Assembly (NCBI GenBank): GCA_903875465.1
Contig: CAIQWB010000100.1
Location: 1 to 64,000 of the forward strand
Length of the DNA: 64,000 nt
Source of the DNA: an uncultured Verrucomicrobia subdivision 3 bacterium
GTDB taxonomy: Bacteria > Verrucomicrobiota > Verrucomicrobiia > Limisphaerales > UBA11358
Reading direction: 5' to 3'
In this document: positions 43,656 to 45,587 of the stretch, piece by piece
How positions within the stretch are numbered: position 1 is the first letter of the stretch
Layout of the letters: each line of letters begins with the position of its first letter
Made by a program: the position numbers and the translations under genes
Notes under the pieces: model-generated
Seen by the model: the letters and a program-made list of their open reading frames with translations, nothing else
The model's database searches: none
What the model was told of the DNA's origin: nothing

Positions 43656-45587
43656 ATGAACAGAATGCAAGTAAACGGACAAAGCGCTCAACTACTTGAG
43701 CAGTTTGGGAAATGGGCGGGCAGTACCATGGCCAGTTCGGGCGGGGGCCTGGGCGAAGCCGCGGCGGACCGGCTGCGCCAGGTGATTGCGCGCCATCCGG
43801 ATATCCGCTGTATGAGCAAGCACTTGGGTGATGACCATGATTTGAATATCTCAGTGCAACTCCTGCGAGCGGTTGAGGGACAGGCGGTTTTTTTATTGAC
43901 CATCCAGCAGGACAACGCCGGAGAATGGGGCGATAACGCGAATGTTTTGGTGCCTGCCCGGGCGCTGACGAAACGCGAATCGCGGCAGAAAACCGGGGCG
44001 GACGCCGGAGCTTTTCCAGGTGCCAGTAAACCGGCCACCCGGGCTTCCGGCAAACCAGCGACGGCGGGGCAATCCGCGCGGACGCAGGCACTTTCAGCCC
44101 GGGAATGGGAAGTGCTGGGGCGATTGGCGGATGGCGGCTCCAATGGGGATATTTCCGCGCGGCTGGGCATGGCGGTTGGAACGGTGCGCACGCATTTAAT
44201 TCGCATCTATAAAAAGCTCCAGGTGCATTCACGGACCCAGGCTGCGGCCATATATCTGACGGCCCAAGCCAACTTTCAGAAACGTGCTGGGGTCGGTCGC
44301 AAATCAACATTTTCCCATAAGTGGGCCAGTTTGGCGTTAATCATCGGCGCTCTGGCCATGGGGCAGTTTGCCTGCCTGGCACAAAACAGCCCAACGGCTG
44401 CGGCCGAGTCGCTCGGCAGTGAAGCCAGGCCGGCCACTTCCAACGCGGCGGGCCAACAGTACCCAAAAGTGGATGCCCAGCAGCGCGTTGAATTCAGGCT
44501 CCAGGCACCCTCGGCACAACGGGTGCAAGTGGATATTGGGGGTCACAAATACGATTTGAGCAAAGACGACCAAGGATTGTGGCGGGGAGTCACCCCGCCT
44601 TTGGTGGTGGGGTTTCATTATTACGCCCTGGTAGTGGATGGGGTTGGGATGGCCGATCCCGCCAGCGAAAGTTACTTTGGGGTCAGCAAAATGATGAGTG
44701 GCATTGATATTCCCTCGCCGGGCGAGGATTTTTACGACCTTAAAAACGTGCCCCATGGCGAAGTGCGCGAGCATTGGTATTTTTCCAACACCAACCGGGC
44801 CTGGCGTCGGTGCTATGTCTACACACCTCCCGATTATGACAGCAACCCCACCGCACGGTATCCCGTGCTGTATTTGCAGCATGGAGCCGGGGAGGATGAG
44901 CGTGGCTGGTCCACCCAGGGCCGGGTGAATTTTATTCTGGATAATCTGATTGCCGAAGGCAAAGCCAGGGCCATGATTGTGGTGATGGATAACGGGGGTG
45001 GCAGTGCCTTGTTTGCGGGGAATCGCAGCGTGGCCGGTTTAATGGGCGGCGCGATGGGCACCAACCGTCCCGCGCCAGCCACGAACGGGTCCAATCCACC
45101 CAGCCGGGGTGGGTTTGGCCGCGGCGGACCAGGCCTCTTGGGGGGGGCCGCAGGGCTGTTTGCTGACACCCTGTTGCACGAAATCATTCCGATGATTGAT
45201 GAAAAATACCGAACCATGGCGGATCGGGACCATCGTGGCCTGGCCGGGTTGTCGATGGGGGGCATGCAGACCCGGGCGATTGGCCTGGCGCATCTGGAGA
45301 CCTTTGCGAATATTGGCATTTTCAGCGGCGGAACCTTGGGTGACTTGAAGGCAACCAACAGTCCGCTGGCCAAACCGGCGGAATTCAACCAGTTGGTGAA
45401 AGTGGCTTTCGTGAGCTATGGGAGCATGGAGGGCGGAGCCAAGAGCCTGGCGAGTTATCATGATTCCCTGGTGGCGGCTGGTATTACCAACATGAGTTAT
45501 TACATCTCCCCGGGAACGGCGCATGAATGGCAGAGCTGGCGGCGCAGTTTCTATCAATTTGCGCCACTGTTGTTTCAAAATCCCTGA
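43656..45587 (+). CDS. LuxR-type DNA-binding domain fused through a membrane segment to a CE1-like esterase
   Basis: I start at the ATG at 43656 (643 residues). Residues 1-125 have no known domain. Residues 146-205 are a GerE/LuxR helix-turn-helix ([40 protein letters not shown]). One hydrophobic helix, about 222-243, follows, then an E-set/CBM48-like domain ([22 protein letters not shown]) at about 270-350. An esterase-D/CE1 hydrolase with the nucleophile Ser533 in GLSMGGMQ and the catalytic His in GTAHEWQSW ends the chain. CE1 enzymes remove feruloyl or acetyl groups from xylan. The layout predicts a cytoplasmic transcription factor tied to an exported enzyme. No good internal start separates the two halves. 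A Gly-rich [11 protein letters not shown] loop lies in the esterase. Confidence 0.85.

Follow-up and report, generated by a model that had tools for sequence, protein, structure and literature searches.

The locus considered here raises the question of how a LuxR-type DNA-binding domain, a hydrophobic helix and a xylan esterase have come to be encoded in one reading frame, and whether the product would act as a membrane-bound regulator, as an exported enzyme, or not exist as a single protein at all. The frame lies in a stretch of 64,000 nucleotides (hereafter, the window) of contig C100 in a draft genome of 5.3 Mb and 153 contigs, for which the closest named relatives were MAGs of Verrucomicrobia subdivision 3. 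A first-pass annotation of this DNA had proposed that the protein could couple esterified xylan fragments directly to transcription, or else that cleavage could release the esterase. The analysis presented below points to a different reading, namely a lineage-specific fusion from which the esterase would be exported.

A single coding frame spans both parts of the gene

As had been claimed earlier, the frame is uninterrupted, running from the ATG at 43656 to the stop at 45587, and on the 5' side of this ATG it remains open as far as a TTG at 43545. The codon-usage score of the frame was above zero in every scoring interval from 43686 to 45486, the junction included, and in almost every one of these it was higher than in any of the five alternative frames. 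Since the coding bias covers the regulator part, the junction and the esterase alike, the regulator part is genuine coding sequence rather than an ORF open by chance. The hairpin found ahead of the gene is present in a single copy in the genome, in the stretch that separates the 39420 gene from the fused one; it looks like a terminator in the minus direction and may block read-through. The features of the gene and of the surrounding locus are collected in Table 1.

Table 1. Features of the fused gene and of the xylan locus (positions refer to the window unless a contig is named).
Feature	Position	Strand	Basis
Fused frame P0001, 643 aa	43656..45587	+	ORF analysis, in-frame coding signal throughout
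N-terminal residues 1-140, probably a decayed receiver plus low-complexity linker	43656..44075	+	Receiver profile, hhalign
GerE (LuxR-type) helix-turn-helix, residues 145-198	44088..44249	+	Pfam
Hydrophobic segment, residues 223-242: esterase signal peptide, cleavage expected after A242 (CLA/Q)	44322..44381	+	Orthologue starts, hydropathy
CBM48-like domain and CE1 esterase, residues 257-641	44424..45578	+	Pfam, PDB, homologue alignment
Catalytic triad	S533 45252-45254; E592 45429-45431; H623 45522-45524	+	Homologue alignment
Perfect 13-bp hairpin, G+C-rich, 28 nt before the ATG	43599..43628	+	Fold z-score -5.2
Operator closest to the fused gene, ahead of the 39420 autotransporter-repeat gene	39290..39307	.	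Pattern scan
Another perfect operator, ahead of the 50168 gene	50015..50032	.	Pattern scan
One-mismatch operator that follows the regulator gene	61910..61927	.	Pattern scan
Operator site outside the window	G000:C100:70762-70779		Pattern scan
Sensor kinase (PA14, HisKA_3, HATPase_c), likely partner in the operator system	57881..61075	+	Domain search
Intact NarL-type response regulator (Response_reg, GerE)	61173..61868	+	Domain search

The regulator half probably derives from a response regulator

The GerE domain scored 59 bits in Pfam (cut-off 23.5) and 64 bits in another search, is 49-59% identical to that of same-genus regulators and, as seen in the alignment, retains the core motif TVRTHL..IY.KL.V.SRTQA intact. 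This half of the protein may still bind DNA. The sequence ahead of it had been described as a domain of unknown kind, and indeed, residues 1-140 matched no Pfam family, Response_reg included, while a named domain sought in Pfam, the PDB and 320 genomes returned nothing above noise except for a few response regulators, several of the matches being antisense or unrelated proteins. In BLAST, residues 1-204 aligned end to end with same-genus NarL-type response regulators. A profile restricted to the receiver was accordingly built so as to take out the influence of GerE on the score of the N-terminus. With this profile, the N-terminus scored 11.8 bits and ranked first among 1001 sequences (best of 1000 shuffles, 5.7), with residues 33-87 providing the best match, and hhalign gave 29.8 against the receiver, a score reached by none of 200 shuffles (best, 22.8). 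Profile and hhalign make a decayed receiver probable, if weakly supported.

The residues required of a NarL-type receiver are missing, with the alignment placing S54 at the position of the phospho-acceptor Asp and N/G at that of the acidic pair. AF2 was given residues 1-215 together with a response-regulator alignment, and the full protein together with esterase rows; both models were of low confidence over residues 1-140 (block means 24-59) and disagreed with each other there. Taken at the level of sequence, the N-terminus is probably a response-regulator receiver that has decayed and lacks a phosphorylatable Asp, rendering the regulator half probably phosphorylation-dead.

The esterase half retains its catalytic residues and its signal peptide

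The Esterase family of Pfam (PF00756) was matched with 62 bits (cut-off 22), and the closest PDB relatives over residues 257-641 were 7b5v (E=3e-107) and 6rzo (E=2.7e-99). The serine of the GLSMGG motif and the other two members of the triad proved invariant across 20 homologues. The reading of the frame as containing GerE and a complete CE1-like esterase with GLSMGG and a distal His was hence sustained by Pfam, the PDB and the triad; the CBM48/isoamylase-N-like domain that precedes CE1 had been absent from that description. The enzyme is predicted to be a secreted CE1 esterase of the feruloyl/acetyl-xylan type, with a xylan substrate fitting both the family and a locus with GH10, GH43 and GH3 genes. 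Given that the catalytic residues are all kept, a working enzyme fits better than does a pure sensor.

The strongest hydrophobic stretch of the protein is that listed in Table 1, with a mean Kyte-Doolittle value of 1.95 over 19 residues. Esterase orthologues from the same genus (G012, 78% identical; G022, 75%; G023, 70%; G060, 64%) have their first Met at the very position where the supposed membrane helix of the window begins, and the equivalent helix in these proteins is the signal peptide. The hydrophobic core in the window is about as hydrophobic as are the signal peptides of the orthologues, which end in AQ or a similar site, and the window keeps CLA/Q. Judged by these orthologues, the single membrane helix of the first-pass annotation is the esterase's own signal peptide. 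Signal peptidase I would probably cut here, given that CLA/Q is retained, and since the short core together with this site has the look of a cleavable signal peptide, release of the esterase is no less likely than tethering.

Unlike in the orthologues, the start codon of the esterase itself is missing at the junction. A scan of the fused frame between GerE and the helix revealed no ATG, GTG or TTG, in agreement with the earlier claim that no suitable internal start precedes the helix; the nearest in-frame starts are ATG172, GTG177 and GTG190, all within GerE, and TTG226, within the hydrophobic core. Ahead of the helix are found R210, R215, K216 and K222. By the positive-inside rule, positive residues before a helix predict an N-in/C-out orientation.

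The fusion is found in only one of the genomes searched

To learn how widely the architecture is distributed, as the first-pass annotation had advised, joined queries and CE1 loci were considered across several collections. The GerE half of the joined query was matched only by the window among some 108 homologous stretches in 320 genomes of the order, no frame combining GerE and CE1 was encountered elsewhere in 388 genomes of the phylum, and only the window copies carried GerE in frame with CE1 among 163 fetched CE1 loci, a set in which some loci overlap, the window copies are included and the best 80 loci from an 84,980-genome collection are contained. The architecture is thus not kept in any relative covered, and all orthologues are stand-alone secreted esterases, which is largely the situation that the annotation had itself named as refuting its proposal. 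A tblastn search of plasmids returned ordinary LuxR/NarL proteins only. The literature search likewise yielded no description of a LuxR-esterase fusion. Neither the genomes nor the papers searched thus provided a second case, in line with the earlier remark that no membrane-bound regulator with a polysaccharide esterase as its outside domain was known.

Gene order was next compared with that of relatives. G012 resembles the window in that an orthologue of the 39420 autotransporter-repeat protein precedes the esterase; in G012, a pilin-like gene (N_methyl, DUF1559; L150 7840-8643) stands between the two, which is missing from that place in the window. In G062:C54 (L200 4125-9862), a kinase-size gene, a response regulator, a perfect operator at 5586 and a CE1 esterase lie on one strand, with regulator and esterase being separate. 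In G015:C240 (L156 1457-3375), an extended CE1 frame begins where an intact response regulator ends, with a 4-base overlap, an arrangement that possibly corresponds to the pre-fusion state in a sister species. The presence of regulator genes directly upstream of CE1 in these two sister species renders a fusion of neighbors plausible. Counting against this, the regulator half of the fused gene does not closely match the neighboring regulator of either G062 or G015. DNA homology between the window and G012 or G022 is absent on the 5' side of the esterase start, which precludes tracing the junction to a deletion.

A putative operator marks the xylan locus

The ATATGAC sites noted earlier as possible targets of the fused protein proved to be halves of an 18-bp palindrome, ATATGAC-N4-GTCATAT. 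When up to one mismatch was allowed, the genome contained four sites, all on contig C100 (39290, 50015, 61910 and 70762), and the palindrome was present in 16 of the 49 genomes of the genus, as compared to none of the 49 for the reversed-pattern control. A site at 61082-61099 was also counted among those palindromes of the window that mark a local xylan regulon. The kinase/regulator pair is encoded amid GH3, GH10 and GH43 genes, and the palindrome is probably the operator of this pair (57881-61868). With its outside PA14 domain and HisKA_3, the kinase is a candidate polysaccharide sensor for the locus.

The site precedes the CE1 match by approximately 155-265 bp in five relatives (G012, G015:C194, G010, G062 and G021). 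By contrast, the fused gene has no operator nearby, the nearest, at 39290, being more than 4 kb upstream and ahead of another gene. The sites are retained as palindromic operators but are best attributed to the intact kinase and regulator of the locus. The CE1 genes of relatives are preceded by the operator while the fused gene is not, so that the regulator part occupies the place of the operator-bearing promoter of relatives. No described xylan operator in this bacterial group was found in the literature searched. This small xylan regulon, with its clear 18-bp operator and likely two-component system, is a more solid result than is the fusion itself.

Weighing the explanations

The single coding-biased frame, the correspondence of the helix to the signal peptides of the orthologues, the kept triad, the intact GerE motif and the unfused state of the orthologues together argue for a genuine lineage-specific fusion, in which a decayed receiver and GerE precede, in one frame, the signal peptide of a secreted CE1 esterase that would still be exported. 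We give this reading about an even chance. The fusion would probably be recent: a diverged response-regulator gene would have become joined in frame to the esterase signal peptide, with loss of the esterase start codon; the operator seen before the CE1 genes of relatives is absent. The internal signal peptide would take the polypeptide into the Sec pathway as an N-in/C-out precursor, GerE remaining cytoplasmic and the esterase emerging in the periplasm, where signal peptidase would probably cut after A242, leaving the DNA-binding fragment as a stub at the membrane and the esterase as an ordinary exported enzyme. That a signal peptide would work and be cleaved behind 222 residues is proposed here from homology. 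Also counting against the fusion are its being a singleton in one draft genome and the start region, where no promoter or operator lies nearby and a strong hairpin precedes the ATG by 28 nt.

Its singleton status in a draft assembly, together with the loss of a start codon exactly at the junction, would also suit an artefact or a very recent frameshift, whereby a base error or indel near 44320 joined an adjoining regulator and esterase. Some single-base indels at the junction would provide the esterase with an ordinary Met-Lys start, placing it in another frame than the regulator, yet half of codon-shuffled junctions offer the same start. Such indels were hence rejected as proof of an artefact, as the result neither supports nor excludes an error. 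The site is, moreover, no homopolymer, and a split regulator would have an unusually long tail relative to its relatives, such that this explanation seems unlikely. Were the esterase instead made alone from ATG172 or TTG226, both of which are in frame, the regulator half would be an untranslated or unused relic, as the decay of the receiver part might suggest. Initiation at TTG226 would, however, leave no charged n-region and has no clear Shine-Dalgarno sequence, ATG172 falls inside the conserved helix-turn-helix, and the upstream part keeps its coding bias with no stop in 600 nt, making this quite improbable.

A membrane-tethered one-component regulator, with GerE inside and CE1 outside remaining joined, would respond through substrate or turnover altering DNA binding, or through a protease freeing GerE. 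The topology expected from the positive charges, the intact GerE motif and the xylan locus agree with this proposal, for which RsgI6, with an outside CAZyme domain serving a membrane regulator, offers a precedent (PMC4711584). It is nonetheless considered improbable, given an architecture conserved in no relative searched, a helix that corresponds to a signal peptide with its cleavage site kept, catalytic residues fully retained, unlike in a pure sensor, and an intact kinase/regulator pair already serving a locus in which no operator lies near the fused gene. That the protein is a trigger enzyme, with an active outside CE1 controlling the inside LuxR-type domain and so linking esterified xylan to transcription without a kinase, appears similarly improbable.

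Comparison with known systems

The two halves of the presumed fusion each have familiar relatives. In CBM48-CE1 feruloyl/xylan esterases (PDB 7b5v, 6rzo and 6mou), both domains, the Ser-Glu-His triad and the signal peptide of a secreted family are shared, but known members begin at the signal peptide, whereas the fused protein has 222 more residues, with GerE, ahead of it. NarL/FixJ-type response regulators resemble it in their GerE domains and in receivers collinear with its N-terminus; they differ in that here, the Asp and acidic pair are gone, the receiver is barely recognizable and a secreted enzyme follows GerE. Aspartate-less receivers (PMC4395418) similarly join a receiver-like domain devoid of the phospho-acceptor to a DNA-binding output, although that of the fused protein, unrecognized by Pfam, is far more decayed.

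Among membrane systems, ToxR/CadC-like regulators likewise carry a DNA-binding domain at the N-terminus and, beyond a single membrane segment, a C-terminal domain on the outside. These, however, use an OmpR-type winged helix, while Pfam detected GerE and no Trans_reg_C in the fused protein, the membrane segment of which is homologous to cleavable signal peptides. RsgI6 of Clostridium thermocellum is an analogue in how it works, given its cytoplasmic regulatory part (anti-sigma), single membrane segment and outside xylan-enzyme domain, a GH10 that shows xylan binding but very low activity (PMC4711584). Yet, RsgI6 is an anti-sigma factor that does not bind DNA, the fused esterase keeps its catalytic residues, and RsgI is conserved while the fusion is a singleton; the fused N-terminus gave no Pfam match to RsgI_N. 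If signaling, the fusion would be a DNA-binding counterpart to the RsgI carbohydrate sensors. If real and expressed, it would be a natural experiment on the acquisition, in a single step, of a cytoplasmic regulator by a secreted enzyme, and would put to the test signal peptide function behind more than 200 residues. Set beside these systems, what is new is the GerE-CE1 combination, as the kinds of components are known and the export fate is probably ordinary.
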